Below, piece by piece: positions 16,713-41,662 of a stretch of DNA of 64,000 nucleotides. Each line of letters begins with the position of its first letter. Positions within the stretch are counted from its first letter, which is position 1. The notes beneath the pieces were generated by a model that had not been told where the DNA came from, made no database searches, and saw nothing but the letters and a program-made list of their open reading frames with translations. The DNA is from Methylocystis sp. ATCC 49242. GTDB lineage: Bacteria; Pseudomonadota; Alphaproteobacteria; Rhizobiales; Beijerinckiaceae. The translations under genes and the position numbers were made by a program. Where the stretch lies: positions 656,736 through 720,735 of the forward strand of contig NZ_KE124774.1 of the NCBI RefSeq assembly GCF_000188155.2. Direction: 5' to 3'.

Positions 16713-16771
16713 TTGATTTTATTGGTGCCGGTTGAGGGATTCGAACCCCCGACCTACTGATTACAAATCAG
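16713..16771. repeat. attL: displaced 3' part of tRNA-Thr (59-bp direct repeat)
   Basis: These 59 bases are identical to 41604-41662. They contain the CCA end, T arm, variable loop and 3' half of the anticodon stem of tRNA-Thr(UGU), plus 10 bases downstream of the tRNA. The 5' half is absent, so it is not a tRNA gene. Together with the integrase at the other end it marks the left boundary of an integrated island. Confidence 0.92.
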
Positions 16772-18233: not shown

Positions 18234-18298
18234 TGTCAATGGCGGGGACAAAATGTGCATGAAGGCGGGGTAAAAGTGTACCGGTCTGGTTTCGAGAA

Positions 18299-18316
18299 AA
18301 GGGCCGCACGGCCCTT
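18299..18316 (-). terminator. Hairpin downstream of istB
   Basis: AAGGGCC-GCAC-GGCCCTT is a perfect 7-bp stem between the istB stop and the element end, followed on the minus strand by a short T-rich run. It probably terminates istAB transcripts. Confidence 0.5.
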
Positions 18317-18387
18317 GTAGTTTAGTTGACGCGGGCGTTGAGGCGCGCGGAGCGTAGCGCAGCGCGGTTCAACGCGCGCGACGGCGA

Positions 18388-19230
18388 TCAGTTCGTCGTG
18401 TCGGCGCCTCCTTTGTCGATTGCGGGCGCGTCGGGGAGATCGCGGTTTCGCCGTTGCACTTTCTTTGCGGTCGAGAGCCGATAGCTCTCGCCGTTCATTT
18501 CCAGAATGTGGACATGATGGGTGAGCCGGTCGAGCAATGCGCCGGTGAGACGCTCGGAGCCAAACACCGACGTCCATTCATCAAAGGGCAGATTGCTGGT
18601 CACCAGCGTCGCACCGCGTTCATAGCGCTGGCTGAAGACCTCGAAGAGCAGCTCTGAGCCGACCGCCGTGAACGGCGCATAGCCCAGTTCGTCGACGATC
18701 AGCAGTTTGACGGTGTTGAGATGCTTTTGCAGCGCGCGCAGGCGGCGCTCGTCGCGAGCCTCCATCAGTTCGTGCACAAGAGCCGCGGCGGTCGTGAACG
18801 CGACGCTGAACCCCTTCTGGCAGGCGGCGAGCCCCAGGGCGAGCGCGACGTGGGTCTTCCCCGTTCCGCTTGGCCCAAGGGCGATGCAGTTCTGTCGCTT
18901 CTCGATCCATTCGCACCGCGCCAGCTCCAGCACGAGCGGCTTGTTGAGTGAAGGCTGGGCGGTAAAGTCAAATGTGTCGAGGCTTTTGACCTGCGTAAAG
19001 CGCGCCAGCCGGATGCGGCGCTCGACATTGCGCCGCTCGCGATCAATGCGCTCCAGTTCGCACAGGCGTAGCAGATAGCGCGGGTAATCGGCGCGGTCCT
19101 GCGCCGACTCCAGCGCCACCTTCTCATATTCGCGCGCGAAGGTGGGAAGCTTCAGCGCCTTGAGATGATTACCCAGCAGCACCTGCGGCGCGACGATCGT
19201 CTGCGAACCTGGCTCATGCGAGGTGGTCAT
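18388..19230 (-). CDS. istB: IstB AAA+ transposition helper ATPase
   Basis: This is a 280-residue protein. The Walker A motif GPSGTGKT is at residues 119-126, Walker B is LLIVDELGY near 183, and sensor-1-like TSNLPFDEW follows. The N-terminal part has the IstB helical domain. It is the DnaA/DnaC-like regulator that, with IstA, selects IS21 targets. The start overlaps the istA stop by four bases (ATGA), the standard coupling in this family. It looks intact. Confidence 0.95.
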   Translation of the reverse strand: MTTSHEPGSQTIVAPQVLLGNHLKALKLPTFAREYEKVALESAQDRADYPRYLLRLCELERIDRERRNVERRIRLARFTQVKSLDTFDFTAQPSLNKPLVLELARCEWIEKRQNCIALGPSGTGKTHVALALGLAACQKGFSVAFTTAAALVHELMEARDERRLRALQKHLNTVKLLIVDELGYAPFTAVGSELLFEVFSQRYERGATLVTSNLPFDEWTSVFGSERLTGALLDRLTHHVHILEMNGESYRLSTAKKVQRRNRDLPDAPAIDKGGADTTN

Positions 19231-20783
19231 GCCGGACCTCCCGCGGTCGTCTCCATGACGCCCGCGATGACGCTCGCGCCGGCGACGAGCCCGAGATAGG
19301 CGCGCGGATCCGTCGCGCCGACCGTAGCCGCCGGCAGGTAGGGGTAGAATGTCAGATCGAGCCGCGCGGGCCGGTTCTCCAGCCTGGCCAGCAGCAGCAT
19401 CTTCACTGCGTCAAAGCTGATCGCGCCAAGACGCAGCGCCTCCGCGACCGCCTGTTCGACCTGATGCTGATGAAAGTCCTCCATCAGCCGCAGCACTTGG
19501 ATGAACTCGCGGCGCCCGCTATTCCCCATGCGCGCCTCCATCAGCCGCCGCAGACGATGCACGCAGTCGGCAAGCCGCCAGTCGTCGAGCGGCGCGGCCT
19601 GATCGAGCGCGCGGCTCTTGTGTTCGAGTAGGGCGAGATAATGCAGCGGGTTGTAGATGAACTCGGCCTTGCCGTAGCTGCGCGCATGCACGGCGATGGT
19701 CTCCCCGCCGCAGACAATCTCGACCCGATCGACATAGCCCTTGGCCAGCACCTCCCGATGGCCGAAGCGCGTCGGGACCGAGTAATCGTTGTTGCGGTAG
19801 CGCACCAGCGCCATCGACGACACGCGCGTCGCGACCTTGTGACAGGCGTCATAGGGAGCCGGCGGCGCCGGCAGGAATGCCGCCATATCCGCCTGCATGC
19901 GTTCGCCGATCGGCGTCGACTGGCCGCGCAGGATCGCCCGCCGTCGTTTCGTGCAGGCGTCCAGGAACCTCGCGTTCAGCGCCTCGAAACTCTCCGCCAC
20001 GGGCAGTGGCGTCATGAAGTTGCGCCGGACATAGCCGACAAGCCCCTCGACCTTGCCCTTGTCATTCCCCTTGCCGGGCCGGCCAAAGCGATCAGCAAAA
20101 AGGTAATGGCTCTGGAGTTCCGCAAACATTTGCGAACGCAGACGCTCTCCACCCTTCACGATCCTGGCGACCGCGAGACGCGTATTGTCGTAAAGAATGG
20201 ACTGGGGGACGCCGCCAAAGAAGGCGAAGGCCGCGACATGGCCGTCGCAGAAGGCTTCCGCCGTCTCCGCCGGATAGGCCTTGACGAAGCAGCCGTCCGA
20301 ATGCGGCAGGTCCATGCAAAAATAATGAAAGCGGACCTTCCTGCCGGCGATATAGGCGTCCGCCTCGCCAAAATCCGCCTGCGCATTCCCCGGTCGATGG
20401 CTGAGTGGAATAAACATCTCGCGCGACCGCAACTGCGCCTGCGCGACATATTCCCGGACGATCGTGTAACCGCCGGAAAACCCTTCTTCGTCCCGCAGCC
20501 GTTCGAATATCCGCTGTGCCGTATGACGCTGCTTGGCGTGAACAAGCCGATCATCCGCCAGGACCTTGTCGATCCAGGCCATATACGGCCCCAGCTTCTT
20601 CGAGATCGGCCGCTCCCGACGCCGATACCCCGGCGGAACCGAATATTGAAGCATCTTCGTGATCGTATTGCGGTGCACGCCGAAGCGCCTGGCCGCTTCC
20701 CGCCGGCTCAGCCCTTCCGCCATCACCGCGCGTCTCACCCGGGCATAGAGTTCCACTGTGAAACATCCTTTCGGCCTCTCCAT
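19227..20783 (-). CDS. istA: IstA transposase of IS21 copy C (start codon shifted)
   Basis: It is about 518 residues from the ATG at 20783 (MERPKGCFTVELYAR). It has the helix-turn-helix SRREAARRFGVHRNTITKML, the rve core with QADFGEADAYI and SILYDNTRLAV, and a C-terminal DNA-binding region ending ETTAGGPA. In copies A and B the protein begins ATG-TTC-ACA; here the same spot reads ATGTTTCAC. One extra T puts the usual ATG (20766) out of frame and leaves the upstream ATG at 20783, or a GTG four codons into the normal protein, as possible starts. Translation may thus be altered although the body is intact. Confidence 0.85.
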   Translation of the reverse strand: MERPKGCFTVELYARVRRAVMAEGLSRREAARRFGVHRNTITKMLQYSVPPGYRRRERPISKKLGPYMAWIDKVLADDRLVHAKQRHTAQRIFERLRDEEGFSGGYTIVREYVAQAQLRSREMFIPLSHRPGNAQADFGEADAYIAGRKVRFHYFCMDLPHSDGCFVKAYPAETAEAFCDGHVAAFAFFGGVPQSILYDNTRLAVARIVKGGERLRSQMFAELQSHYLFADRFGRPGKGNDKGKVEGLVGYVRRNFMTPLPVAESFEALNARFLDACTKRRRAILRGQSTPIGERMQADMAAFLPAPPAPYDACHKVATRVSSMALVRYRNNDYSVPTRFGHREVLAKGYVDRVEIVCGGETIAVHARSYGKAEFIYNPLHYLALLEHKSRALDQAAPLDDWRLADCVHRLRRLMEARMGNSGRREFIQVLRLMEDFHQHQVEQAVAEALRLGAISFDAVKMLLLARLENRPARLDLTFYPYLPAATVGATDPRAYLGLVAGASVIAGVMETTAGGPA

Positions 20784-20893
20784 GCCAGTCGATGACATCG
20801 AGTTCGGCCTATCAGGACCGGTACACTTTTGCGCCGCCGTCAAAGCAGCCCCCAAAGCCGCTTCAGTGGTACACTTTGCCGCCGCTGTTCATA

Positions 20894-21110
20894 CGGAGAC
20901 GTCCATGCCGCCATATTTGGCCTTCCAGTTGTAAAGCGTCGTCTCCGACACAGCATATTTGCGAGCCAGATCCGCCGCCTTCGCGCCCGCCTCGTGCTCC
21001 CGCAAAATCCCGATGATCTGCTCTTCCGTGAACCGCTTCTTCTTCATCTCGTCCGTCCCGATATGGCCGGACTCTAATCGCATCTGGTCGAGTTTCTCAG
21101 GGGCAGGTCA
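20894..21110 (-). pseudogene. IS3-family (IS407-like) orfA, 5' fragment
   Basis: The sequence is identical in protein to the start of orfA of the IS3 copy at 31893-33161 (MKKKRFTEEQIIGILREHEA...WKAKYGGMDVS). It also has the same outer terminal repeat ending CAGGGGCAGGTCA-like at 21110. It is cut after GGMDVS by the end of IS21 copy C. The element inserted into an IS630 transposase gene and was then itself truncated. Confidence 0.85.
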
Positions 21111-21207
21111 CCACGCCAAAGCGCAAAGCCACGGCGCGGCAACTCTCGCCAGCCAAAACCGACGCAACCACACGCTCTCGAAGATCATTGGAGAGAGGTC
21201 GAACCAT
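21111..21207 (-). pseudogene. IS630-family transposase, N-terminal fragment
   Basis: From an ATG at 21207 the minus strand reads MVRPLSNDLRERVV, then AGESCRAVALRFGVV. This is the typical N-terminal helix-turn-helix of a small IS630 transposase. It is cut after about 32 codons by the terminal repeat of the IS3 fragment. The flank 21208-21296 probably is the rest of this IS end. Confidence 0.75.
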
Positions 21208-21300
21208 TGGATGCTGGCCTCCGCCCAGCCAGCATCTTGAATCACACTCCTGCTAAAACAGGAATCCCTCCCGATTCAGAAATACAGGGAAATGCTCTAG

Positions 21301-22163
21301 AGGGTGTTATGCACCTTGGATCATGAAATCTGCTGCGCGCTTGAGCATGAGACATGCGAAGGCGACGACGTGGAGTCCTGCGAGGGTCTGAGCATAGCGC
21401 TCGTAGTCTTTGACGAGCCGCCTGCATCGCGTCGCCCAGGCGAATGAACGCTCGACCACCCATCGCTTGGGCAACAGCACGAAGCCCTTCTTCGCTTCGG
21501 CAAGTTTGACGACGCACAGTTCGGCGCCTTGCGCCTTCGCCGCCTCGGACGCCTTTTCGCCGGTGTAGCCCTGATCGACATAAACGAGTTCGACGCTTTC
21601 GCCTGTCACATCCTGCACGGCTGCGATGAGCTTGCCGACCTCGGCGCGGTCATCGACATTCGCCGGCGTGACATGCAACGCCAGCAAATGGCCCAATGTG
21701 TCGACTGCCATGTGCAGCTTCGAGCCGCGCTTTCGCTTCGCGCCGTCATAGCCCGCTCGTGGGCCGCTCTCAGGGGTCGAGCGCAAGGTGCGGCTGTCGA
21801 TGATCGCCGCCGTCGGCTCCGCCGCCCGCCCGGAAGCGACGCGCAACTGGGCGCGCAGATCCTGCGCAAGCGCCTCGAACACGCCCGCCGACAGCCAGCG
21901 CTGCGATTGCTGATACACGGCGAACCATGGCGGCAGATCGTTGGGCATGGCGCGCCAGGCGATGCCGTAGCGCAGCACGTAACGCAGGCCGTTGAACAGC
22001 TCGCGCAGCGAATGTTGACGCTGCGGCGCGCCTTCGTCCATGAGCGTCAGATAAGGCGCAACCAGCGACCATTCTTCGTCGCTGACGTCAGACGGATAAG
22101 GTTTGCGAATCGGAGACATCCGATTCTACTAAGACAATCAATCACCAAAGTACATAACACCCT
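21301..22163 (-). mobile_element. IS5-family element with CTAG target duplication
   Basis: The terminal inverted repeats are AGGGTGTTATG at 21301 and its complement ending at 22163. The flanks are CTAG at 21297-21300 and CTAG at 22164-22167, a 4-bp target duplication typical of the IS427 group of IS5. The element is complete and the duplication is perfect, so insertion is recent. It landed between two IS630-type sequences. Confidence 0.9.
21307..22119 (-). CDS. IS5-family DDE transposase
   Basis: This 270-residue protein has an N-terminal DUF4096-like domain (YPSDVSDEEWSLVAPYL, LFNGLRYVLRYGIAWRAMP). The DDE core has IIDSRTLRS (first Asp), VDQGYTGE (second Asp) and WVVERSFAW (Glu). Its length is normal for single-frame IS5 transposases and no lesion is visible. 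It fills almost the whole element between the inverted repeats. Confidence 0.93.
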   Translation of the reverse strand: MSPIRKPYPSDVSDEEWSLVAPYLTLMDEGAPQRQHSLRELFNGLRYVLRYGIAWRAMPNDLPPWFAVYQQSQRWLSAGVFEALAQDLRAQLRVASGRAAEPTAAIIDSRTLRSTPESGPRAGYDGAKRKRGSKLHMAVDTLGHLLALHVTPANVDDRAEVGKLIAAVQDVTGESVELVYVDQGYTGEKASEAAKAQGAELCVVKLAEAKKGFVLLPKRWVVERSFAWATRCRRLVKDYERYAQTLAGLHVVAFACLMLKRAADFMIQGA

Positions 22164-23282
22164 CTAGTCACGTGAATCTGAAGTTCGCAGCATAAGGGTC
22201 GTCTCCGTCTTCTGGCAGAAGCGTTTGACGGAGGCGAGGATTTCGTCGGCGGATTTGGTCCAACGATACGGCTTCGGGTCTTCGTTGTGTCGCTCGATGA
22301 ATGCGAGGATGTCCGCTTCGAGCTGCTTCGTTGAGGTATGGACGCCGCGACGGATCTGTTTGCGGGTGAGTTCAGCAAACCAGCGCTCGACTTGGTTTAT
22401 CCATGACGCGGAGGTCGGCGTGAAGTGCACATGATAGTGAGGCCGTCTCGCCAGCCAGTTTTTTACCAGAGCCGTTTTGTGAGTGGCGTAGTTGTCCATG
22501 ATAATATGGATATCGAGGCCCTCCGGAACACGCGCATCGATTTGCTTGAGGAAGTCCAGGAACTCCGCGGCTCGGTGGCGCTTGTAACATTTGCCGATCA
22601 CAAAGCCCGAAGCGATATCCAGAGCCGCGAAAAGCGACATTGTGCCATGGCACACGTAAGAATGGGTCCGGCGCTCTGGAATGCCCGGCATCATCGGCAG
22701 GACCGGTTGCTCTCGATCAAGAGCCTGTATCTGGCTCTTTTCGTCGACGCTCAGCACCAGCGCCCGAGTTGGCGGCGATAGATAAAGCCCGACGATGTCG
22801 CGCACCTTGTCAACGAACAGCGGGTCGCTTGAAAGCTTGAATGTCTCGGTGCGATGCGGCTGCAAGCCAAAGGCGTTCCAGATCCTTCGGATCGTCGTAT
22901 GCGAAAAGCCTGTCTGCGTCGCCATCGACCGGATCGACCAATGCGTGGCGTCCTTTGGCGTAGACCGTAGCGTGCGCTCAATGACGGCAGCAACCTGGTC
23001 ATCGTCGATCGTCCGGGGCCGGCCAGGGCGCGCTTCATCCAGTAGCCCTTCAATTCGGTCCTTCAGAAAGCGTCGCCGCCATTTGCCTACCGTGGGCTCA
23101 TGCATCCCCAACTCAATCGCAACGGTTTTGCTGCGCACTCCGTCCGCGCATCGCAGGATGACGCGGCAGCGTTCGGAAAAAGACCGTCCAACTCGATGCC
23201 GGCGAACCTGCCGTTCAAGGTAGGCGCGTTCTTCCGGACTCAGTATCAAGGGAGCAATCGGACGTCCCGTCGCATTGGCCAT
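22164..23282 (-). CDS. IS630-family transposase
   Basis: This 372-residue transposase starts at 23282 (MANATGRPIAPLILSPEERA). The N-terminal helix-turn-helix is AIELGMHEPTVGKWRRRFL, and a linker carries the GRPRTI motif. The DDE core has VDEKSQIQAL (Asp), HIIMDNYATHK (Asp) and ASWINQVERWFAEL (Glu). All three catalytic residues are present. Its stop codon lies in the CTAG duplicated by the adjacent IS5 insertion. The frame is open further upstream, but the chosen start follows the family N-terminus. The element's termini were not resolved. Confidence 0.9.
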   Translation of the reverse strand: MANATGRPIAPLILSPEERAYLERQVRRHRVGRSFSERCRVILRCADGVRSKTVAIELGMHEPTVGKWRRRFLKDRIEGLLDEARPGRPRTIDDDQVAAVIERTLRSTPKDATHWSIRSMATQTGFSHTTIRRIWNAFGLQPHRTETFKLSSDPLFVDKVRDIVGLYLSPPTRALVLSVDEKSQIQALDREQPVLPMMPGIPERRTHSYVCHGTMSLFAALDIASGFVIGKCYKRHRAAEFLDFLKQIDARVPEGLDIHIIMDNYATHKTALVKNWLARRPHYHVHFTPTSASWINQVERWFAELTRKQIRRGVHTSTKQLEADILAFIERHNEDPKPYRWTKSADEILASVKRFCQKTETTLMLRTSDSRD

Positions 23283-23625
23283 AAACTCGCTCCCACTCCC
23301 AGCTGGGGAGAGGATATAATGAATCGAACTTCGGTTCCAGATGACAAGCATCGCGCTGGCAGCCGCAAAGAGTGCCGTGAGTGGCCGTCGATGTCGATCT
23401 TATAGCCGCTCTGAATGAGTTGGACGTCAGCTCGAAATGCATTCTTCACCGTGCGGAATCGTGTCGGATCGTCGACCATTGTGTTGAAGTGCTTTCGACG
23501 TTTTGGCCTCTGTTCGAAAGCAGGCATGACCGCGTAGTGAGATCCCGCTTTTGGCGCGTCGACCGCTTCTCGCCAGTCAGCGCGTCTCATGCATTGAATG
23601 TTCCTATGTGTGGGGAAGCAGGCTC
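23283..23625. other. Junction between IS630 and module 2, with a possible truncated gene
   Basis: A minus-strand frame opens at 23590 (MRRADWREAVDAPKAGSHYA), 35 bases after the peptide-binding protein's stop and with AGGAA upstream. It runs into the IS630 start region. It could be the 5' end of a third operon gene cut by the insertion, but I recognise no family. Otherwise the stretch shows nothing. Confidence 0.35.
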
Positions 23626-25500
23626 CTAGTCGTTACGAATTTCTTCGCTTTTCCACCACCACTGCTCGAGCGTGAAACCGAACGGATACATCGGGTAATG
23701 CGGAAGATATGACGGCCGCTCGAGTGTAGCGCTATGAGCGGTCCAAATTTCGTCGACAAAAAACAGCGGAACGAAATAAAAGCCCGAGAGCAACGCCCGA
23801 TCAAGCGCGCGCGCCGCATCGACATGCTCTTCCGGCGTCTTTGAACCAATGAGCGCCTCGATCAGCGCGTCCAATGCGAGCGATGAGGCGCCAGCGAGAT
23901 TGGTTCCTTTTTGGTTGTCTAGGCTCGCGGAACTCCATCTTCCTGCCTGCTCGGCTCCTGGAACGGCGGAGGGGAGCCATTGGCCAATCATCATGTCATA
24001 TTCGAACTTCCGCCGACGTTGCTGATACTGCGTCTCGTCATATAGTCTGGGCTGCGCGTTGATTCCGATGCGCTTCAGTGACGCCGAAAAATTCAAGGCA
24101 AGCCGCTCTTCGTCGCGATCGCGGATCATGATCTCGAATGCGACCGGCCGACCGTCCTTCTCCAACCCCTTGTCGGTCAGCTTGTACCCGGACTGCGAGA
24201 CAAGCCGGATGGCCCGCCTCGCGATTTCGCGATCACGTCCGCTGCCGTCATGAATGGTGGGGCGCCAGCTACCGTCTAGCGCATCCTGTCGAACCGTGTC
24301 GGGGAAGCGCGCGAGTAGCGCGCGTTCTCCCTCGCTGGCGGGGCGGCCGAATGAAGAAAAGGGTGACCCTTCGAAATAGCTTGTCGTCCTCTTGTAGAGG
24401 CCGCCATAGAAATTGGCGTTGACCCATTCGAAATCGAACATCATCGCCATGGCTTCACGCAGCGCGACGTCTTCGAAAAGCTTGTTACGGAGATTAAAGA
24501 CGAAGCCGGACATGCCGACCGGCCGTCCCGGGCGCAGCGTATCCTTGACAATCCTTCCGTCTCGCTTGGCGGGAAAATCGTATGCCGTTAGCCAGCGCGC
24601 GGCGCTCGATTCTTCGCGATAGTCGATGAGCCCGCCCTTCAATGCTTCAAACAGAGCGCCGCCGTCCCGATACCATGAGACGTCGATCTCATCGAAATTA
24701 TAGAGTCCGCGTTGGCTCGGGATATCCTTTGCCCAGTAGTCTGAATCTCGCGCGAGAACCAGCCGCTCGCCAGCTTTCGCTTCCTTGACAAGGTAAGGGC
24801 CGGATCCGACTGGAATATCCATTCGAACATCGTCGAAATGCGCGCTGTCGACCGCTGTCTTCGAGAGGATTGGCATCGCCGCCAGCAGCAGCGGCAATTC
24901 GCGGTCTGCGCCTTTGCCCAAATCAAAGCGGACCGTATGGGTGTCGGCTGCTTCGCTTCTTGTCACGCGCGAGAAGGCGTCGCGTTGGCCGGGGCGGCCT
25001 TTCGCCTTCAGGAGCTCGAAGGAGAACAAAACGTCTTCCGCAGTAATTGGCCTGCGGTCGGAAAAGCGCGCGCGTGGATCGAGGCGAAAAATGACGTATT
25101 CTCGCTCGGGTCCGAGTTCCACCGACTGTGCAATGAGCGCATACATGCTATAGGGCTCATCCTGCGAGCGAGCCATCAGGCTTTGATAGACATTTCCGAT
25201 GAGAAGCTGCGGCGCTGCGGCGAATTTGAAATTGAACGGATTGAGGCTCTCGTATCCACCCGCCATTCCGAGCCGCAATTTTCCCCCTTTTGGCGCGCTC
25301 GGATTGGCGTAAGGGAGATGATCGAAACTATGGGGAAGCGCAGGTTCTCCATACAGGGCGAGCCCATGCTTCGCCGCTTCGGCGCCGGAGGTCTGCGCAA
25401 AAAGCGCGATGAGACAAGTGACGACGAGCGCAAAGGCGGCCGGCGGCCATTTGGAAGGAAGCGCAAGCAAGGCGCCCTTTGGATGACCGCGATGACGCAT
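23626..25500 (-). CDS. YejA-like peptide-binding periplasmic protein (SBP family 5)
   Basis: This 624-residue protein has a basic N-terminus and a signal peptide (FALVVTCLIALFAQTSGAEA). The family 5 fold follows: HSFDHLPYANPSAPKGGKL, LNPFNFKF, ITAEDVLFSFELLKAKGRP, VGSGPYLV, SGFVFNLRNKLFEDVALREA. HSFDHLPYxNPxAPKGG is the N-terminal hallmark of YejA-type proteins. Those feed YejBEF ABC importers for oligopeptides such as microcin C and plant antimicrobial peptides. No permease or ATPase gene accompanies it here. The start has AAGGAAA 6 bases upstream. It lies 34 bp after the HMA-methyltransferase gene. The likely ligand is a peptide, possibly the metal-loaded cargo of the receptor upstream (inference). 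Confidence 0.88.
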   Translation of the reverse strand: MRHRGHPKGALLALPSKWPPAAFALVVTCLIALFAQTSGAEAAKHGLALYGEPALPHSFDHLPYANPSAPKGGKLRLGMAGGYESLNPFNFKFAAAPQLLIGNVYQSLMARSQDEPYSMYALIAQSVELGPEREYVIFRLDPRARFSDRRPITAEDVLFSFELLKAKGRPGQRDAFSRVTRSEAADTHTVRFDLGKGADRELPLLLAAMPILSKTAVDSAHFDDVRMDIPVGSGPYLVKEAKAGERLVLARDSDYWAKDIPSQRGLYNFDEIDVSWYRDGGALFEALKGGLIDYREESSAARWLTAYDFPAKRDGRIVKDTLRPGRPVGMSGFVFNLRNKLFEDVALREAMAMMFDFEWVNANFYGGLYKRTTSYFEGSPFSSFGRPASEGERALLARFPDTVRQDALDGSWRPTIHDGSGRDREIARRAIRLVSQSGYKLTDKGLEKDGRPVAFEIMIRDRDEERLALNFSASLKRIGINAQPRLYDETQYQQRRRKFEYDMMIGQWLPSAVPGAEQAGRWSSASLDNQKGTNLAGASSLALDALIEALIGSKTPEEHVDAARALDRALLSGFYFVPLFFVDEIWTAHSATLERPSYLPHYPMYPFGFTLEQWWWKSEEIRND

Positions 25501-25534: not shown

Positions 25535-26440
25535 TTACGCTTTTGACCGACCGAACAGGGCGCGCCAACGGCGCGAAAGACATCCCTGCTGAGGGATGTC
25601 GTCGAGTTCCAGTAACTTCAAGCCGTCGACGGCGAGACTTTCGATTTCGCCGCGCGTCAGCGGCCGCCATGGCGTGGCCTGAGGCTCATTCGCTTCTCGC
25701 GCAGAGGAAATGACGAGCAGGCGCCCGTCGGGCGCGACCATCGACGCGAGCGCCTTTGCCGCGTCCGCCGTCGATTCGGGTCGAAGTGTCTGCAAAGTGT
25801 AGCATTCGTGCACGAGATCGAAAGCGCCGACCCATTCAGGCGGCGGCGCGAAAAGATTGGCGACGCGGTAGTCGACCGCAGTATGGGGGAAACGCTGCTT
25901 CGCCCATGCAACGGCGCGGCCAATATAGTCGAAAGCGCTGACGCGAGCCCCGGCGGTAGACAAAGCCTCCGCATTGTCGCCGAGCCCACAACCGACGTCG
26001 AGCGCGCGCTTGCCGCCAATATCCTGCTTGGACAGCCAATCCGTAAGCAGGGAGTTCGCAGAGAGCGTCGCCCAGGGAATATTGGCTGCGTCGTCGCCGG
26101 CAAGCTCATAGACCTTCGTAAACCATTGATCTCCTTTTGGGTCGCCAGGATCTCCGCCTGGCTGCATGCGCGGGTTGATCGCGTTCAGCCGCTCCCGAGC
26201 CATGGTTCGGCGCGCGAAAAAGTCGGCGTCGGTCTCCTGCACGACACGCGCCTTGTATCCGGCCTTGTCGATCGCGCAGAGAAGCGCATGCAAATCAGCA
26301 GGGGCGGGATCGATCGACACCTGCTTCGCGGGAAGATCGACGGAAACTCCCGCGTTGGACTTCAGGGCGTGCACGGCCTCGACGACATGCTGCGCGCATC
26401 CTTTGCAATGCATATTCTCTACGAACAGGACTATCGGCAT
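25535..26440 (-). CDS. HMA metal-binding domain fused to SAM-dependent methyltransferase
   Basis: This is a 301-residue fusion. Residues 1-68 are a heavy-metal-associated domain with the MxCxxC metal site (VENMHCKGCAQHV, Cys12 and Cys15), as in CopZ/Atx1 copper chaperones. Residues 105-295 are a class I methyltransferase of the TehB/UbiG type. Its SAM-binding motif I is ALDVGCGLGDN (148-156), its acidic loop is SAFDYIGRAV, and FDLVHECYTLQTL follows. The start at 26440 is chosen for the GGAG 6 bases before it; a frame four codons longer exists. No signal peptide is seen, so it acts in the cytosol. It sits between the receptor gene and the peptide-binding protein gene. It may methylate a metal, a metal-bound ligand or a protein; the substrate is unknown. 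Confidence 0.88.
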   Translation of the reverse strand: MPIVLFVENMHCKGCAQHVVEAVHALKSNAGVSVDLPAKQVSIDPAPADLHALLCAIDKAGYKARVVQETDADFFARRTMARERLNAINPRMQPGGDPGDPKGDQWFTKVYELAGDDAANIPWATLSANSLLTDWLSKQDIGGKRALDVGCGLGDNAEALSTAGARVSAFDYIGRAVAWAKQRFPHTAVDYRVANLFAPPPEWVGAFDLVHECYTLQTLRPESTADAAKALASMVAPDGRLLVISSAREANEPQATPWRPLTRGEIESLAVDGLKLLELDDIPQQGCLSRRWRALFGRSKA

Positions 26441-26505: not shown

Positions 26506-28956
26506 TCAGAATTTCAGCTTAACGCCGCCAACCAAGGCCCGCGGCGAGCCAGCAAGAATCCCCGCGCCTTGCGCCGTGGAGAGGAGGAGCGTTGGCGTCT
26601 GGATAGGCGTGCCAGCGATCAGCGTGTTGCCCATCACAAATGAACCAGCAATATAGGTGCGATCGAAGACGTTGTTGAGATTGAGATACATCTCTAGATT
26701 CTTGATGAAGAAATTCGCGATGTCGCGATTGTAGTGCAGGTTCAGATTGACCAGCCCATAGCCCGGAAGGGATGTGAAGTTGGCGTTGTCGATCGTGTAG
26801 CCCGCCTTGAAGACATATTCGGCGTAAGCGCCCAGCCCCTTGAAATCGCCGGTCGACTGATCGTAACCCACGCGCGCCGTCAGCGTATGCGGAGACACGT
26901 TGGGGATCCTGTTGCCAGAACGATTATACATAACGAACCGGCCGTTCAAGGCGCCGAGATTGTCCCAGTAGTTCGTGAAGAACTGATCGTTCAGCGTATA
27001 TGCTGCAAGGAAGCGCCAGCCGTCGAAGGGGCGCCAATCGATATTGGCTTCGAGACCACGATGGATCGAGGCGGGCACGTTAGCCTGATAGCTGACGAGC
27101 CCATTCGACAGGGTCAGAATTTCGTTGCGATACCACTCGTTGAAGCCGGTGAGGCTTACAAGCACGTTGTGGCTCGGCGTCCAGTCGATCCCGACATCGA
27201 CGCCCATATTAGTCTGCGCCTGTAGGCCGGTATTGCTCCCGGCGCCTGTCTGCGTCGACGTCAGATAGAGGAAGGACGGCGTGCCGTAGCCCGCCGCGTA
27301 ACGCGCCCGGACCTGCCATTCCGGGCTGTAGCGGTAGGTCAGCGACGCTTCCGGCGCAGTGTTCCAATAGTCATTGTCCACACCGACCTGCTGTGGCAGC
27401 CTCCATGTCCCGTTCGCGTTGTAATTATAAACGGTATTGACGCCCCAGACGCGATTCCAGTTTGTGCTGAAGCCGATAACGCCGGTCAATTGCGGCGTCA
27501 GCGCGATTTCCTCGCGAGCACGAAGTCCGATATTGGACGTGTAGCTGTCGATCTTACCGACGGCTGCGCCAACTGCGCCGTAATTCCAGATGTTGGGGAG
27601 CTGGTTGAAGAGGGGATTCGTGGTTTTGACGTTGCTATAGAAGAAGCCCAGATAATGCGTGGCTGGTATGCCAAAAAGCGGGGCGTGGCTGGTGATGTCC
27701 GTGCTGGCGTCGATGCCGACGGAAGGTCCGCGGATCGCGACCGGTCCGCCAAGCCCGCCCAGAAAGGCCGGCCCCACTTTCGGCGGCGGCCAGGTGCCGT
27801 TGATGTAGTCGAAATGGTTATAAGTGAATTGGCTTCGCCAGGTCGTCGCATTGTCGAAATCATGCTCATAGCGGACGCCGCCGATCATCTGCTGCGAATG
27901 CAGATGCGAGCCGAGTTGCCAGACGCTCTGATTGACTAGCGGAGCCAACGCTGAGGTGAAGATCCCGTTCCTCGGCACGTTGAGATTGTTGCAAAACGGC
28001 AGATTGGCCGGGGTCGCAATGGCGCAGCCGAAGCTTGTGCCGTATGGGTTCCAATAATACTGATTTTGAGAACTTCGGTTCATGAACGTCGAGAACGAAT
28101 CGTTGAACAGATACTTAAGCGTGAAGCGATCATTGGGCGTCGGCGCCCATCTCGCAAGAAGGCGCGCCTGGTCACCCGAAAATGCGCTCCGCGCGAGATA
28201 GCCATCGCCACGGGCGTCCGAGGCGAAGATCGAGATGTCGAACTCGCCGAGGCTCGCGGTCGCTGCCTTCTTGCCCGCGCGGATGTAATTATTGATGTAG
28301 CCGAAACTGCCGAATTCGGACCCGGTGTCCAGTCCGTCGATTTCCGCGCCCGAAAATGTCCGGAAATTGATCGCGCCGCCGAGAGCGTAATTGCCGAAGA
28401 GCGCCGATGAGGGGCCGCGATAGACGTCCGTGCCGTTATAGGCGTGCGGGTCGAGGATATCCGTTCGGCCTGTGCCGTCAGCGGTCGTGATCGGAAATCC
28501 GTCCTCGTAGAGCATGATGTTGCGGACGCCGAGCGGAAAGCCAACCCCGAATCGGGAACCCGAGCCGCGGATCGAAATGTTGACCTCTCGCGGGGTGTTG
28601 CCTTCCTGAATCTGGACGCCGGGGCTGTATTGCAGCATCTCCCGAACGGTGAACATGGGCGTTGGCCTGAGGAACTTGTGATCGACCGTCGTGACCGTTT
28701 GCCCCGGCGGCTCTCGATAAATAGGCAGCTTGGCCCGCGGGAGCTGGAAGCCCGGCGCGGCGTTTGTCGATTGTGTCCCATTGGTCCCGATCGCGGGTAC
28801 GGCGGCGGGCGCGGGGCTCGATGCGCGAGGGGCGGCCCGCCGGGCGACGCCGACTTCAATGGTCGGCAGCGTCTGCTGTGCATCGGCGACTACAGGAACA
28901 AAGGCGAGCAAGAGTGACGCGACGGATGCGCCGCGCAATAGGCTTGAGCGTGACAT
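26506..28956 (-). CDS. TonB-dependent outer-membrane receptor (module 2)
   Basis: This 816-residue receptor has a signal peptide ending VVADAQQ and a TonB box-like LPTIEVG. A Pro/Ala/Ser linker (residues 38-70) precedes a plug domain (FTVREMLQYSPGVQIQEGN, ISIRGSGSRFGVGFPLGVRN, TDVYRGPSSALFGNYALGGAINF). The long barrel ends in the C-terminal Phe signature (LVGGVKLKF). The plug is of the FecA/OprC-like general type, not the FpvA type of module 1. It heads a minus-strand operon with the HMA-methyltransferase and YejA-like genes. Divergent two-component genes lie beyond the DUF2946-like gene. The substrate may be a metal-peptide complex, inferred from partners. Confidence 0.92.
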   Translation of the reverse strand: MSRSSLLRGASVASLLLAFVPVVADAQQTLPTIEVGVARRAAPRASSPAPAAVPAIGTNGTQSTNAAPGFQLPRAKLPIYREPPGQTVTTVDHKFLRPTPMFTVREMLQYSPGVQIQEGNTPREVNISIRGSGSRFGVGFPLGVRNIMLYEDGFPITTADGTGRTDILDPHAYNGTDVYRGPSSALFGNYALGGAINFRTFSGAEIDGLDTGSEFGSFGYINNYIRAGKKAATASLGEFDISIFASDARGDGYLARSAFSGDQARLLARWAPTPNDRFTLKYLFNDSFSTFMNRSSQNQYYWNPYGTSFGCAIATPANLPFCNNLNVPRNGIFTSALAPLVNQSVWQLGSHLHSQQMIGGVRYEHDFDNATTWRSQFTYNHFDYINGTWPPPKVGPAFLGGLGGPVAIRGPSVGIDASTDITSHAPLFGIPATHYLGFFYSNVKTTNPLFNQLPNIWNYGAVGAAVGKIDSYTSNIGLRAREEIALTPQLTGVIGFSTNWNRVWGVNTVYNYNANGTWRLPQQVGVDNDYWNTAPEASLTYRYSPEWQVRARYAAGYGTPSFLYLTSTQTGAGSNTGLQAQTNMGVDVGIDWTPSHNVLVSLTGFNEWYRNEILTLSNGLVSYQANVPASIHRGLEANIDWRPFDGWRFLAAYTLNDQFFTNYWDNLGALNGRFVMYNRSGNRIPNVSPHTLTARVGYDQSTGDFKGLGAYAEYVFKAGYTIDNANFTSLPGYGLVNLNLHYNRDIANFFIKNLEMYLNLNNVFDRTYIAGSFVMGNTLIAGTPIQTPTLLLSTAQGAGILAGSPRALVGGVKLKF

Positions 28957-29034: not shown

Positions 29035-29406
29035 TCAGTTTGCCAGAGGCGGTGATCTCGGAGACTGCGATCCAAGCCGATCAAAGGTCCCGAAGGGAGG
29101 AACCTGCCAGGAAAGCCCCGCAAGGCGGGCAGGAGGTGGCGGCGAGGGAACCATGAGCGCGTCGTTCGCGCCCAGAACGGGTCTCGGCGCGCCGCCGACA
29201 TGATCGGTCGCACACGCATCGCAGTGATGCCGCCACAGGTCATTTCGCGGCGCGTTCTCTCCCGCATCCCTGCCCGTGCAATTCACGCCAGTGAAGGCTT
29301 TGCCTATGCCCAAGGCGGCTCCGTGCCCGTTCGACGTTCCCGTCGCCGACAGGGTGGCCCCCTGAAGGGTCAGACAGAGCAGGAAAATCCAAAGGGCGCG
29401 GAACAC
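29035..29406 (-). CDS. DUF2946-like small protein (module 2)
   Basis: This 123-residue product is read from the GTG at 29406, with GAGG 7 bases upstream. The frame is open far upstream but composition there is not coding-like. It starts VFRALWIFLLCLTLQGATLS, a signal peptide or anchor. It has a His/Cys motif (WRHHCDACATDHVGG) and a proline-rich middle (VPSPPPPARLAG). It is equivalent in position and layout to the module 1 protein at 13778-14188. DUF2946 proteins are frequent neighbours of TonB receptors for copper or iron. Function unproven. Confidence 0.62.
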   Translation of the reverse strand: MFRALWIFLLCLTLQGATLSATGTSNGHGAALGIGKAFTGVNCTGRDAGENAPRNDLWRHHCDACATDHVGGAPRPVLGANDALMVPSPPPPARLAGLSWQVPPFGTFDRLGSQSPRSPPLAN

Positions 29407-29510
29407 GGTTCGACCTCGATCAAAGACTTCCTGATCGATTAGCACTTCAAGGTAACGCGAACGCAACCGCAGGAGCGATACCCAGGGGCCCGAAGTAGAA
29501 GGCGTTTTAC

Positions 29511-29599: not shown

Positions 29600-30277
29600 A
29601 TGAGAATATTGGTCGTCGAAGACCAGATCGACATGGGCATTCTGATGTCCGACCGACTTGAGCGGTCGGGATATCTCGTCGACCGCGTGGGCAGGATCGC
29701 CGACGCGCGGGAGGCGCTGCACGCATTCGACTATCCCATCCTGCTGCTGGATCGACGGCTGCCAGATGGCGACGGCTTGGATTTCCTGCCGGAAATCCGC
29801 ACTTTGCGGCCAAATATTCGCGTGCTCATGGTCACCGCGCTGCGTTCGCTCGACGATCGGGTCAATGGCCTCGACGCCGGCGCGGACGATTATTTGATCA
29901 AGCCCTTCGCGCCTGACGAGCTTCTCGCGCGGATACGCGCCAGCCTGCGTCGGCCCGGCGCCGCCCCGATTCCTCCCGTCGTGCTGGGCCAATTGTCTTT
30001 TGACCTCAATCTGCATGAAGCACAGGTGCGGGGCCGAGCGTTGGCGCTCCACAAGCGCGAACTCCTGTTGCTGGAGACGTTGATGCGGCGCGCCGGTCGC
30101 GCGGTGACCTATACGGTCCTCATCGACGAAATTTATGGTCTGGACGAGCAGGTTCAAAATGACGCGCTCAAAATGCTGGTGTCGCGCCTTCGCCAGAAGT
30201 TGAGAGACGCCGATGCGGGCGTCGAAATCTATGCGACGCGGAGCGTGGGCTACATGATCGTGCAGGCGCGCGCCTGA
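29600..30277 (+). CDS. OmpR-family response regulator (module 2)
   Basis: This is a 225-residue protein. The receiver is MRILVVEDQIDMG with the phospho-acceptor Asp51 in LLLDRRLPDGDG, followed by MVTAL and YLIKPFAPDELLARIRA. The winged helix has LHKRELLLLETLMRRAGRAV, VSRLRQKLRD and RSVGYMI. The last base of its stop is the first of the kinase start (TGATG), so the two are coupled. It is a paralogue of 14431-15111. It probably regulates the divergent receptor operon in response to a metal or envelope signal. Confidence 0.95.
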   Translation: MRILVVEDQIDMGILMSDRLERSGYLVDRVGRIADAREALHAFDYPILLLDRRLPDGDGLDFLPEIRTLRPNIRVLMVTALRSLDDRVNGLDAGADDYLIKPFAPDELLARIRASLRRPGAAPIPPVVLGQLSFDLNLHEAQVRGRALALHKRELLLLETLMRRAGRAVTYTVLIDEIYGLDEQVQNDALKMLVSRLRQKLRDADAGVEIYATRSVGYMIVQARA

Positions 30278-31725
30278 TGCGACCGCGCTCCCTCAAGTCC
30301 CGGTTGATCCTGTTTTGGATATTGGGTTCGCTTCTCGCCTATTTTTCGACGCCCATCACCGTGCAAATTCCGCTGGCTTTTTTTTGGGGTCGCGACCATC
30401 GCCAGGCGCTCGAAGTCTGGACGACGAAGCACGCGCGAGACGTCGTGATCGACGCGCTCAGACGCGGCGACGACGGCAACCTCTATATCGAGTCGACCCC
30501 GCAGTTGCAGAGACATCAAGAACGCAACCCGGATTTTCTCTTCGCCGTTTTTGATCCAGTAGGCGGCGCGTTGCTGCCTGGGTCTTCGCAACGGCTGGCC
30601 GCGCATTTCAGACCTCTCCTTGGCGACGTCGAAGTGTTCGGCTCGCTTTTCCATCTGGAGAACGATCCAAATCCGAATGCGCGCGGTTACGTGCGCACGA
30701 CGCTAACCCGCTTCGGCAAAATCGAGACGATTGTGTATGGCTCGACCTTTCACTGGGACGACGTCTTCTACCAGTTGAACGCCTATCTCGTTGCAGAGAA
30801 TATTCTCGCGTATCTCCCGCTTTGCGCGATCATCTCGCTGATCGGCTTTTTCGTGGTTCGCAAAAGTTTGGCTCCTTTGAGCGTTGCCGCCCGCAATATC
30901 AAGAAGATCAATGTAGATACGCTGAACTGGCGTGCGCCGGACGGTAATCTCCCCTCAGAAATCGCGCCTTTTGTCGAGGAAGTAAACGCCGCCTTCCAAC
31001 GCGTTCGAGACGGGGTTGCCCGGCAGCGACGTTTCACGGCGAACTCGGCGCATGAACTCCGCACGCCAATCGCAATTCTGTGCGCAAGGCTCGAGAAAAT
31101 GATCGATTGCCCGCTCAAGGCGGAATTGCAGCGGGACGCGGCTCGAATAAAAACAATTCTAGAGCAACTTCTCGTCTTGGCTCAGATTGAGGAGCGCGCC
31201 CAGGAAAAAGAAATGCCGAAGCTCGATCTGCGGGAAGCGATTCTTACAGCAATCGCGGATTTGATGCCCATCGCCTATCATAGTAATCGTCAAATCGAGT
31301 TCGAGGCCCCTGATAATCCGGTTCCCGTCTACGCTTTCCGCTGGGCCGTCGAGAGCGTCGTTACAAATCTCATTGAGAATGCCCTGCGCGCGGAGCCGCT
31401 CGGGGGCTTCGTTGTCGTTCGCTTATCGCCAGACGGAGTCATCGACGTCATCGACCACGGCCCGGGCATTGCGCCACAGGAGCGCGACATAATTTTTGAG
31501 CCGTTTTGGCGAAAGAGCGACGCTACGCCAGGCACTGGACTGGGCTTGGCGATCGCCAGAGAATTGATGGAAAAGCAAGGCGGACGTCTGTGGGTGGCCG
31601 AAACGCTTGGTGGCGGGGCAACATTCAGGGTTGCTTTCGCCCGTCCGCTCACCTCCGCTCACCCTCCAGGCCTATATGGAGATCGGCAACGAAAGGAAGC
31701 AGGCCGCTTTATCCAAAGCCAATAG
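30277..31725 (+). CDS. Sensor histidine kinase (module 2)
   Basis: This is a 482-residue kinase. Helix 1 (LILFWILGSLLAYFS) is followed by a periplasmic domain of about 130 residues, helix 2 (AYLPLCAIISLIGFFVV) near residue 180 and a HAMP-like stretch. The phospho-acceptor His259 lies in NSAHELRTPIAIL. The HATPase boxes are NLIENALRAEP, IDHGPGIAP, FEPFWRKSDATPG and GTGLGLAIAREL. It has an extra 25-residue tail absent from the module 1 kinase. The sensor domain is diverged from that of module 1, consistent with a different signal. Confidence 0.95.
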   Translation: MRPRSLKSRLILFWILGSLLAYFSTPITVQIPLAFFWGRDHRQALEVWTTKHARDVVIDALRRGDDGNLYIESTPQLQRHQERNPDFLFAVFDPVGGALLPGSSQRLAAHFRPLLGDVEVFGSLFHLENDPNPNARGYVRTTLTRFGKIETIVYGSTFHWDDVFYQLNAYLVAENILAYLPLCAIISLIGFFVVRKSLAPLSVAARNIKKINVDTLNWRAPDGNLPSEIAPFVEEVNAAFQRVRDGVARQRRFTANSAHELRTPIAILCARLEKMIDCPLKAELQRDAARIKTILEQLLVLAQIEERAQEKEMPKLDLREAILTAIADLMPIAYHSNRQIEFEAPDNPVPVYAFRWAVESVVTNLIENALRAEPLGGFVVVRLSPDGVIDVIDHGPGIAPQERDIIFEPFWRKSDATPGTGLGLAIARELMEKQGGRLWVAETLGGGATFRVAFARPLTSAHPPGLYGDRQRKEAGRFIQSQ

Positions 31726-31910: not shown

Positions 31911-32838
31911 TCATCCAGCGGCGGGTTGAGTCCTTCCGGTTGATACGCCCGAGGGCGCGAATGGAGCAACAGGCGATCGGCGGAGTTGGTCCGGGTTGCG
32001 CAGCCGATCGCCTGTTGCGGTGAGATTGGCCGCGAAGGCGGCGGGCGTCGCATAGCCGAGGGCCGAATGCGGGCGGCGGTGATTGTAGTCCTGGGCCCAG
32101 GCGCTGATCTTCTCCCGGGCATGGTCGAGCCCGAAGAACAGCGTCTCGTTCAGCAGTTCGTCGCGCATGCGCCCGTTGAAGCTCTCGCAGAAGCCGTTCT
32201 GCATCGGCTTGCCCGGCGCGATATAGCGCCACTCGATCCTGTTCTCGCTCGACCACGACAGCACGGCGTTCGAGGTGAACTCCGTGCCGTTGTCCGAAAC
32301 GATCATGCCGGGCCTGCCGCGCCATGCGATCAGCGCCGACAGTTCCCGCGCCACGCGTTGGCCCGAGATGGATGTGTCGGGGATCGCCGCGAGGCATTCA
32401 CGCGTCACGTCGTCGACGATGTTCAGGATGCGGAACCGGCGTCCGCAGGCGAACTGGTCATGCACGAAGTCCAAAGACCAACGCGCATTCGGCCGCGCCT
32501 CGACAGGAATGGGCGCCCGCGCGCCCGACAGCCCTTCGGCGGGCGCGCCGCTTTCTCACCGTCAGCCCTCCCTCGCGATAGAGCCGGTAGATGCGGTTCT
32601 TGCCCGACGTCTCGCCCTCCTGCCGCAGCAGCACGAACAGCCGCCGATAGCCGAAGCGCCGGCGCTCGTTGGCGAGTTCCCGCAGCCGCTCCCGTAACGG
32701 CTTGTCGGTCGGCCGCTTCGAGATGTAGCGGACGGTCGCGCGATCGACGGCGACAATCTGGCAGGCCCGACGCTCCGACAGAGCCATGGCGGCTCGCAGA
32801 TGCACAACGGCTGCGCGCTTGGCGGCGGGCCCTACCAT
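31911..32838 (-). pseudogene. IS3 OrfB transposase, frameshifted
   Basis: The first part (32838 downwards) encodes ALSERRACQIVAVDRATVRY and ERRRFGYRRLFVLLRQEG. The second part (to 31911) encodes [31 protein letters not shown] and [17 protein letters not shown], the DDE core. The two lie in different frames, with the break near 32520 just after [10 protein letters not shown]. Normal IS407-type OrfB is one continuous frame of about 280 residues. The copy is probably inactive unless complemented. Confidence 0.85.
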
Positions 32839-33098: not shown

Positions 33099-33204
33099 CT
33101 CGTCCGTCCCGATATGGCCGGACTCTAATCGCATCTGGTCGAGTTTCTCAGGGGCAGGTCAGTCGTCTCATAGTTTCTCTGAAGCAACAAGAGGAGATTT
33201 TTCC

Positions 33205-39777: not shown

Positions 39778-41037
39778 TTACGCCCACCGCGACAGCGGGA
39801 CGATATTTGCGCCGGTCAGCGCCGCGATATGCGCCGCCAGCGCCTGCAACGCGTCGCGCCGTTCGGCGAAATATTCGTGGCGCTGATAAATCGAGACAAT
39901 GCCGCGAAATGTTCCGCTGGCGTGATTCAACAGCTTCTCGACGACATGCGCGGCGACGCCGAGCGACTGAAGATTGGTCGCCGCCGTCCGTCGCAAATCA
40001 TGCGGCGTCCAATGCGCAAGCGGCGCGCCGTCAAACCGCGCAATCTCGGCGTCGATACGGTCGCGGATGCGCGAGAATGACGAACGGAACACGCGGCCGT
40101 CATCAGTGACGCGCGCGGCGTGCAGCCGTTGCAGGATGCGCAGCGCGGGCGCGGAAAGCGGCGTCACGTGCGCCTTGCGGTTCTTGGCGCGCGCCGCCGG
40201 CAAGGTCCAAACGCCGTTGTCCAAATCGACTTCGCGCCATTCGAGGCGGGCGACTTCGCTGAAGCGCGCGGCCGTCAGAATCAAGAGCCGGATGAAATCG
40301 CCGTCTTCGCCGTCAAGGCGTTCGGCGGCGCACCACACGCTGGCCAGCTCGCGGCCGTCAAGCACGCGCTCGCGCGGCGTCTCGGCGTGCGGCGGCTCGA
40401 TTCCGGCGGCGGGATTGCGCGCAATCAATTCTTCGTCGACGGCATGGGCGAACAGGCGGCGCACGGTCGACAACAGCCGATTGGCCATGACCGGCGCGCG
40501 TTCGCCGACGCATTCGAGTAACGCGCGCACGTCGGCGCGGGAGACTTCGGCAATCGGCCGCGCGCCCCAAGCGGCGACGACTTCGCGCCGCAACAGGCGC
40601 CCGGTTGCGTCGACCGTCTTCGGGCTGGCCTTGCGGGACATGCGCTGAAGGAAACCGTCGACAAGCTCGGCGACCGTCTCGCGCTGGGGTGTCTTGGCCT
40701 GTCGCTTCGCCTCCCGTTGTTTGGCGATTTCGGCCTTGGCTTGACGCTTGGCCTCCCGCTTCTCGGCGGCCGGGTCTTTGCCTTGCATTAGCTCCAGCCG
40801 CGCCTTAGCGGTGAGCTTTCGCGCCCCGTCGACGCCAATCGAGGCCGGACCGAGCGTCAGATTGCGCGATGCGCCGCCGAAGCGATAGCGTAAGCCGAAG
40901 GACTTCGCGCCGGACGGGCGGATGACGACGCGAAGGCCGGACTCGACGGGCAGCTCGTAAGGCCCGGCGCGAGGCGACAGCTTGGCAATGCGCGCATTGG
41001 TCAGCGGCTTTGTCTTTGCGGGAGATTGGGCGGACAT
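39778..41037 (-). CDS. P4-type tyrosine integrase of the island
   Basis: This is a 419-residue integrase. The N-terminal DUF4102 domain (LTNARIAKLSPRAGPYELPV, FGLRYRFGGASRNLTLG) is followed by a Lys/Arg/Ala-rich helix, a SAM-like core-binding domain (ETVAELVDGFLQRMS) and the catalytic domain. The catalytic domain has LTAARFSEVARLEW (Arg), HDLRRTAATNLQSLG (His-x-x-Arg), LLNHASG (His) and the nucleophile Tyr in IYQRHEYFAERRDAL. The ATG at 41037 has AAAGGA upstream. It lies next to the intact tRNA-Thr, its presumed integration site. All catalytic residues appear present, so excision may still be possible. Confidence 0.95.
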   Translation of the reverse strand: MSAQSPAKTKPLTNARIAKLSPRAGPYELPVESGLRVVIRPSGAKSFGLRYRFGGASRNLTLGPASIGVDGARKLTAKARLELMQGKDPAAEKREAKRQAKAEIAKQREAKRQAKTPQRETVAELVDGFLQRMSRKASPKTVDATGRLLRREVVAAWGARPIAEVSRADVRALLECVGERAPVMANRLLSTVRRLFAHAVDEELIARNPAAGIEPPHAETPRERVLDGRELASVWCAAERLDGEDGDFIRLLILTAARFSEVARLEWREVDLDNGVWTLPAARAKNRKAHVTPLSAPALRILQRLHAARVTDDGRVFRSSFSRIRDRIDAEIARFDGAPLAHWTPHDLRRTAATNLQSLGVAAHVVEKLLNHASGTFRGIVSIYQRHEYFAERRDALQALAAHIAALTGANIVPLSRWA

Positions 41038-41603: not shown

Positions 41604-41662
41604 TTGATTTTATTGGTGCCGGTTGAGGGATTCGAACCCCCGACCTACTGATTACAAATCAG
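41604..41662. repeat. attR: 3' part of intact tRNA-Thr (59-bp direct repeat)
   Basis: It is identical to 16713-16771. It spans the 3' half of the tRNA-Thr gene and 10 bases beyond it, giving the right boundary of the island. The integrase gene starts about 570 bp to the left. Confidence 0.92.

Follow-up and report, generated by a model that had tools for sequence, protein, structure and literature searches.

An operon in the window (i.e., the whole 64,000-nucleotide stretch of Methylocystis sp. ATCC 49242 DNA analyzed here) is tentatively read as an orphan and mobile uptake operon for a methanobactin-type copper chalkophore, in which a protein joining a heavy-metal-associated (HMA) domain to a class I methyltransferase would serve as a cytosolic copper-release enzyme, a reading to which we would give a probability of roughly 0.4. 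The operon thus supplies a concrete candidate enzyme for copper release from methanobactin, including in a genome that is probably that of Methylocystis parvus OBBP or its equal, and, if the reading is true, metal release from a metallophore would be achieved here in a new way, which would bear both on the use of methanobactin for copper removal and on the sharing of copper among methane oxidisers. The features of the operon and of its divergent regulatory genes are as follows:

23626..25500, minus strand, SBP_bac_5 YejA-type periplasmic binding protein, MbnE-like (Pfam, PDB searches, tree)
25535..26440, minus strand, HMA-methyltransferase fusion gene, 301 aa (open reading frame list and Pfam)
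25538..26230, minus strand, class I SAM methyltransferase part, residues 71-301 (Pfam TPMT, Foldseek, PDB profile search)
26252..26431, minus strand, HMA (CopZ/Atx1-type) domain, residues 4-63 (Pfam PF00403, 44.2 bits, cut-off 24.8)
26396..26413, minus strand, MHCKGC metal-binding motif, Cys12 and Cys15 (translation)
26506..28956, minus strand, TonB-dependent receptor, MbnT clade (Pfam and trees)
29035..29406, minus strand, small open reading frame upstream of the receptor, 123 aa from GTG, with an HHCDAC motif
29451..29467, minus strand, direct repeat GTTRCG-N5-GTTACS with an 11-base period, candidate response-regulator site
29600..30277, plus strand, divergent OmpR-type response regulator (Pfam, synteny)
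30277..31725, plus strand, sensor histidine kinase (Pfam, NCBIfam, synteny)

The first-pass annotation had described an MxCxxC metal-binding domain joined to a class I methyltransferase and encoded with a TonB receptor on one side and a YejA-type binding protein on the other, and this description holds in all of its parts: the Pfam models for HMA, Methyltransf_25 (residues 147-239, 42.4 bits, cut-off 27) and Methyltransf_11 (residues 147-242, 41.7 bits, cut-off 21.2) are all above cut-off in a single open reading frame, the translation reads M10-H-C12-K-G-C15, and both neighbours were identified by Pfam, with all three genes on the minus strand and only 65 bases between the receptor and the fusion gene and 34 bases between the latter and the binding protein. 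An alternative ATG at 26452 would extend the product to 305 aa. The AlphaFold2 model of the protein (mean pLDDT 87.7, pTM 0.76) shows the secondary structure of an HMA fold around the Pfam-matched MxCxxC part, as well as the class I SAM methyltransferase fold, which the fold search also returned and which is accompanied by a SAM motif I reading LDVGCGLGDN in three operon copies and LDVACGLGDN in the copy of genome G203, while the CxxC of the HMA part is kept in four of the four copies. As no signal peptide was seen by eye, the protein is presumably cytosolic. Its MxCxxC HMA domain has the length of the CopZ/Atx1 copper chaperones, from which it differs in being joined to a methyltransferase in three of the four operon copies; the HMA part of the remaining one (G089) is a free 68-aa open reading frame, just as in those chaperones.

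Full-length matches to the protein were found in four of the 39 Methylocystis genomes sampled (30 of the 39 with a completeness of 90% or more and a contamination of 5% or less), namely, the window genome, G627, G089 and G203, and the order regulator/kinase, receptor, HMA-methyltransferase and binding protein is kept in all four, which bears out the predicted recurrence of the pair next to TonB receptors. The neighbourhoods were drawn with a rough gene caller by which some genes were missed or replaced by false open reading frames (the HMA-methyltransferase gene was missed in L097 and L098, and the methyltransferase gene in L100). The two parts are fused in the window genome, G627 and G203, and form two adjacent genes in G089, where the HMA open reading frame stops at TAA and the ATG of the methyltransferase follows three bases on, in the same frame. 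Separate encoding of the parts in close relatives had been named beforehand as evidence that would count against the first-pass interpretation, and it was indeed encountered in this one genome of the four, yet the genes there are adjacent and within the same operon, so the co-function survives and only the covalent link proves not to be essential. Two changes on the receptor tree are enough to explain either order of events, be it fused first or separate first.

This variation bears on a copper-switched methyltransferase, in which Cu(I) bound to the HMA domain would toggle an enzyme acting on a cellular thiol or a protein rather than on methanobactin. HMA domains do act as regulatory modules in P-type ATPases, and the direct fusion seen in three of the four copies would suit such a device; the two separate proteins of G089, however, are ill suited to an intramolecular switch, and the location between a receptor and a binding protein points to some involvement with the ligand that is imported, and we hold a switch of this kind to be unlikely.

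Outside the genus, the pairing is as unusual as it had first been taken to be, with no match joining the CxxC and the methyltransferase in the family, phylum and GTDB samples searched. Among 248 genomes of the family (a sample from which G627 is absent), full-length matches came from members of the genus only, among the matches listed (to about E 1e-6); among 398 genomes of the phylum, the window genome alone gave a full-length match at E up to 1e-20; in the GTDB contig scan, which may leave out records very near the window genome, 63 of 63 loci align from query residue 51 or later and thus do not reach the CxxC; and a plasmid collection yielded 16 records, none of which covers 80% of the query. 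A widespread fusion is rejected on the family, phylum, GTDB and genus searches, and the pairing, as judged from the same searches, is real but narrow in distribution. Pairwise dN/dS (six pairs for each part) amounts to 0.15-0.42 for the HMA part and 0.11-0.23 for the methyltransferase, as obtained with a simple Nei-Gojobori script at dS values of 0.77-1.67, which are partly saturated; since the fused gene recurs at the corresponding position in two further genomes of the genus, and in view of these ratios, the gene is, on sequence grounds, more than a chance arrangement.

The methyltransferase part seems to be nearest to the thiol/halide (TPMT-like) methyltransferases and is a probable sulfur methyltransferase. 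Pfam TPMT matches the protein with 27.8 and 28.8 bits (cut-off 26), and the generic Pfam methyltransferase models outscore it on the window protein alone, whereas across a 25-member alignment (three operon methyltransferases, that of G203 not being among them, plus 22 others; used for both the Pfam scan and the PDB profile) TPMT is matched in 25 of 25 members and yields the lowest single E-value of any family (1.6e-19), with TehB matched in 12, UbiE in 11 and NodS in five of the same 25. The best chain in the PDB search with this profile is the thiol methyltransferase 9h0d, followed at ranks 2-6 by YtkW, 6mro, a phosphoethanolamine N-methyltransferase, 8gdu and 4nec (echinomycin biosynthesis), and Foldseek, when given the AlphaFold2 model, places 6mro first, UbiG ninth and 4nec eleventh, seven chains of its top ten being halide methyltransferases (of three different proteins) and the TM-scores by query ranging over 0.49-0.58. 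By Pfam, PDB profile and fold alike, the nearest group is thus that of the thiol/halide methyltransferases (TPMT, HTMT) and the echinomycin S-methyltransferase 4nec, from which the window protein differs in carrying an HMA domain and in an identity of 17-21% over the top eleven Foldseek alignments. Class I methyltransferases resemble each other, and this counts against a firm S-methyltransferase call; to our knowledge, none of the members of this methyltransferase family has a known substrate or activity.

The TehB matches also lend something to a detoxification reading, according to which the imported ligand would carry Hg, Te or Se and the enzyme would methylate the metal(loid) in the manner of TehB and TPMT-like enzymes; the HMA part does match the start of the mercury(II) reductase model, albeit far below cut-off, and methanobactin is stated, in passages of PMC12997803, to bind mercury as well. 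A dedicated receptor importing a toxic metal would, however, be odd, no mer, ter or ars gene is among the five operon and regulator genes scanned, and distant relatives of the receptor adjoin copper genes, all of which makes detoxification a highly improbable function.

Most genomes of the genus contain a stand-alone relative of the methyltransferase that is 54-61% identical to it (58-59% identity for the single copy in the window genome). This paralogue, the pepA-holC-linked methyltransferase of Hyphomicrobiales, is without an HMA domain and has a housekeeping neighbourhood, unlike the operon enzyme: of 16 loci (taken from the 63 GTDB loci and three fetched ones), 14 have a called HolC-family gene in the 3 kb upstream, and Pfam was used to check HolC and PepA at one locus. 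Seven alignment columns are fixed in the four operon methyltransferases on a residue other than the one shared by at least 70% of 29 others, four of these columns being at residues 249-259 and three at residues 256-259. The closeness of the two enzymes, together with the separate genes of G089, might be taken to mean that the HMA part is a plain copper chaperone that hands copper on, and the methyltransferase a mere passenger, i.e., a duplicated pepA-holC-linked enzyme with an old and unrelated job. Such a passenger would hardly be expected to stay with its partner in four of four copies at dN/dS values well under 1, nor to have acquired seven fixed differences from the stand-alone enzymes, three of them clustered as above, and, at the affinities given in passages of PMC5947558, a plain chaperone would struggle to take copper from methanobactin; the passenger explanation is one that we consider improbable.

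That methanobactin is the candidate ligand, which gives substance to the suggestion in the first-pass annotation that metal might be released from an imported metallophore, stems from the phylogeny of the receptor and of the binding protein. The receptor has the plug (PF07715) and barrel (PF00593) domains above cut-off, and no STN signalling domain was found in it by Pfam. The four operon receptors form one clade (support 97/94 and 99/97 in two trees), which is sister to the receptors of mbnP-H-T-E clusters in a joint clade with support of 100/98 and 100/99; the second of these trees left out L129, L134 and L174, took 12 of the 18 listed Methylosinus matches, and drew a program warning of long branches meeting at the outgroup join. 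Eight N-terminally extended Methylosinus receptors, which we infer from their extension and similarity to be of the MbnT2 type, fall in the wider clade just outside the joint one, and the one of them that was scanned gave an STN score of 27.4 bits, just under the cut-off of 28.4. The window receptor thus shares a wider clade with receptors like MbnT2 of Methylosinus trichosporium OB3b, from which it differs in that no STN was found and in that a two-component system replaces the sigma/anti-sigma pair. It groups with the receptors of mbn clusters and is not itself encoded with methanobactin biosynthesis genes. An identity as PqqU was rejected (NCBIfam match of 144.1 bits against a cut-off of 1200).

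The binding proteins of the window, G627 and G089 are, in turn, sister to 13 binding proteins of mbn clusters (support 99/98), and that of the G203 operon is on a different branch of the tree, which has 28 rows (L206, L207 and L214 duplicating operon rows, so that only its branches are used) and leaves out the fragmentary binding protein of L160. A further locus of G203 (L221 1-9283) holds a receptor-like open reading frame, a two-component pair (by eye) and a binding protein close together, the latter grouping with the binding protein of the G203 HMA-methyltransferase operon. The possibility that the window protein is the solved MbnE (PDB 5icq, from Methylocystis parvus OBBP) was rejected, as 5icq is a chromosomal paralogue (matched with 753 bits by the window protein and with 1121 bits by the chromosomal copy of the same genome), the operon copy being sister to the mbn-cluster proteins. 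The sequence of 5icq, as printed, is identical to the chromosomal binding protein of G627 from residue 35 to 621, by which G627 is probably M. parvus OBBP or its equal. The 5icq gene is found at L220 7948-9813 of G627, where no mbn gene was recognised, and is separate from the two loci at which G627 has MbnB and MbnC; it is a paralogue of the mbn-cluster binding protein.

For comparison, we retrieved 20 receptor-containing regions from the genus, one of which is the G627 operon. A binding protein gene, whole or partial, adjoins the receptor in 14 others (L156-L169), ten of which also contain a divergent 275-aa MbnB-type gene, and no binding protein was called in the remaining five (L170-L174); MbnC is over cut-off inside ten of the fetched regions, and MbnH, MbnP, MbnB and MbnC all pass their cut-offs in L157, the one checked against the models. 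L157 also encodes, at 13587-14420, an ECF sigma factor with a C-terminal methanobactin precursor domain (NF040705, a named family), likewise above the cut-off of its model. The Methylocystis mbn clusters, with their mbnP-mbnH-mbnT-mbnE arm (mbnPH is likewise described upstream of mbnT for strain SB2 in passages of PMC9601215), have the sister receptor and binding protein and, as in the window operon, the receptor before the binding protein; the window operon differs from them in having a two-component system and not a sigma factor, and in carrying the HMA-methyltransferase gene between receptor and binding protein. No HMA or methyltransferase gene was called in the 14 mbn-type regions with a sister receptor, and the fusion is thus not needed by every methanobactin user.

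The window genome also differs from the mbn clusters in its biosynthetic content: neither MbnC nor MbnP was found in it, and its best MbnB-like match reaches 80 bits against a cut-off of 325, so that no biosynthesis cluster defined by MbnB plus MbnC is recognised; the same is true of MbnC and MbnP in G089, with an MbnB-like best of 83 bits against the same cut-off. With a receptor and a binding protein sister to those of mbn clusters and no mbn biosynthesis gene over cut-off, the window operon looks like an orphan methanobactin-uptake operon, a conclusion that appears well supported by gene phylogeny and gene content. An mbnT gene in the absence of biosynthesis genes is reported for Methylocystis strain Rockwell (passages of PMC12997803), and Kenney and Rosenzweig proposed in 2013 that foreign chalkophores might be taken up by non-producers (PMC3621798, in part). 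A “pirate only” picture would nevertheless be too simple, since two of the carriers, G203 and G627, have MbnB, MbnC and MbnP of their own, away from the HMA-methyltransferase operon. MbnC is over cut-off in 21 of the 39 genomes of the genus, and G627 has two MbnB/MbnC pairs, in keeping with the two mbnA genes that passages of PMC3621798 give for M. parvus OBBP.

Receptors distantly related to that of the window (40-43% identity; L125-L128) occur in another family of the order and adjoin copper genes, with PCuAC beside the receptors in L125, L126 and L128, CopC plus CopD in L125 and L128, and DUF2946 in L125 (by Pfam, from which L127 was left out); these neighbourhoods point to a wider family of copper receptors. 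An imported ligand that is a copper chalkophore other than methanobactin, handled by the same release logic, would agree with such receptors from outside the genus, which adjoin PCuAC, CopC and CopD with no mbn gene recognised there, and with the fact that the operon receptors and binding proteins are on branches of their own, sister to and not within those of the mbn clusters. The strength of the joint clade with the mbn-encoded receptors argues against it, as does the place of the extended Methylosinus receptors, taken as MbnT2 type, just outside that clade, and a different chalkophore seems to us quite unlikely.

The nearest NCBIfam models of the divergent regulator and kinase (PmrA and the heavy-metal sensor TIGR01386) are both far below cut-off. 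The pattern GTTRCG-N5-GTTACS is found without mismatch once in the operon region of each of the four genomes, having been derived from those four sites themselves, and 0.70 chance matches would be expected in the window with one mismatch allowed, which makes the repeat only suggestive as a candidate site of the response regulator. Similar small open reading frames to the one with the HHCDAC motif, which has no Pfam match, were seen by eye in L155 and L097, and vaguely in L098; by eye, too, it resembles the DUF2946 proteins beside related receptors (L124 being just under cut-off and L125 above it).

Taken together, an uptake and release route for foreign methanobactin might run as follows. Control of the operon would fall to the divergent two-component system, presumably a copper sensor, as synteny and the shared promoter repeat suggest; the MbnT-like receptor would import Cu-methanobactin made by neighbours, and the MbnE-like protein would carry it through the periplasm (both from gene phylogeny), after which an unlinked permease might move it into the cytosol. 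There, the methyltransferase might S-methylate the thioamide or enethiol sulfurs holding Cu(I), so that their affinity falls, and the HMA domain, tethered to it (or, in G089, co-encoded with it), would take the Cu(I) via Cys12 and Cys15, as its domain family suggests, and pass it on. Destroying the peptide would be affordable for a cell that uses it without re-exporting it. That release would be of this destructive, one-way, “methylate and grab” kind, with the chalkophore's own ligands S-methylated, the copper caught by a fused chaperone, foreign methanobactin as the source and a genomic island as the vehicle of spread, is something we regard as possible, if doubtful.

The chemistry of the ligand leaves room for such an enzyme. 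Methanobactin binds Cu(I) in S2N2 sites, whose sulfurs are those of thioamides or enethiols, with affinities of 10^20-10^21 per M, and passages of PMC5947558 describe the removal of this copper in cells as thermodynamically and kinetically unfavourable, and a cellular challenge; the parts of a 2020 review that deal with the matter state release in the cytosol as unknown (PMC7558416). MbnPH has been speculated, in passages of PMC9601215, to help copper release, and with MbnP absent from the window genome, a replacement would be wanted; the same passages have M. trichosporium importing foreign methanobactin via MbnT2. S-methylation is described as lessening the activity of gliotoxin-type dithiols and has been proposed as a backup protection for holomycin, and deletion of the enzyme that S-methylates gliotoxin gave no added sensitivity (PMC5356443, in part). 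In mostly open-access literature, no report was found of an HMA-methyltransferase fusion in a methanobactin system, and such sources, at abstract level, held nothing on point for the S-methylation of methanobactin. Scavenging of foreign chalkophores is itself an old idea, and it is the S-methylation release chemistry that would be new if shown. Against the main reading are the G203 binding protein on another branch, the separate HMA and methyltransferase genes of G089, the fact that the solved MbnE (5icq) is a chromosomal paralogue and not the operon gene, the absence of a permease gene from the window operon, and a regulator and kinase that stay under the cut-offs of the heavy-metal models.

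The mobility of the operon is suggested by the following features around it:

16713..16771, second copy of the 59-base repeat, inside a predicted tRNA-Thr (16723-16795)
39778..41037, minus strand, tyrosine integrase of a genomic island (Pfam PF00589)
41604..41662, attachment repeat (perfect 59-base repeat), the 3' end of tRNA-Thr(tgt) 41614-41689

The operon is enclosed by the two perfect copies of the repeat, of which the one at 16713-16771 is likely the far end of the island, and, as judged from this arrangement, it sits on a mobile tRNA-Thr island; the operon of G089 is on a 166-kb contig. A third copy of the repeat (98%) is found at L102 6640-6698, about 7.3 kb left of the window, which suggests two genomic islands in tandem, each with a receptor and a two-component system; a second receptor, along with a PepSY protein and a further regulator pair, would then belong to the outer island. 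A second receptor system is present at 9950-16475 of the window, with a siderophore-type TonB receptor (TIGR01783 over cut-off), a PepSY_TM protein and a two-component pair, whose regulator shares 55% identity with that of the G627 operon. A 292-aa remnant with a TonB plug domain alone (8792-9670), near a resolvase gene, is probably a broken receptor. Within the island, the operon is flanked by transposase genes (16993-23351 and 31911-33134), one of which was scanned and has rve and Mu-transposase C-terminal domains, the others being named by eye.
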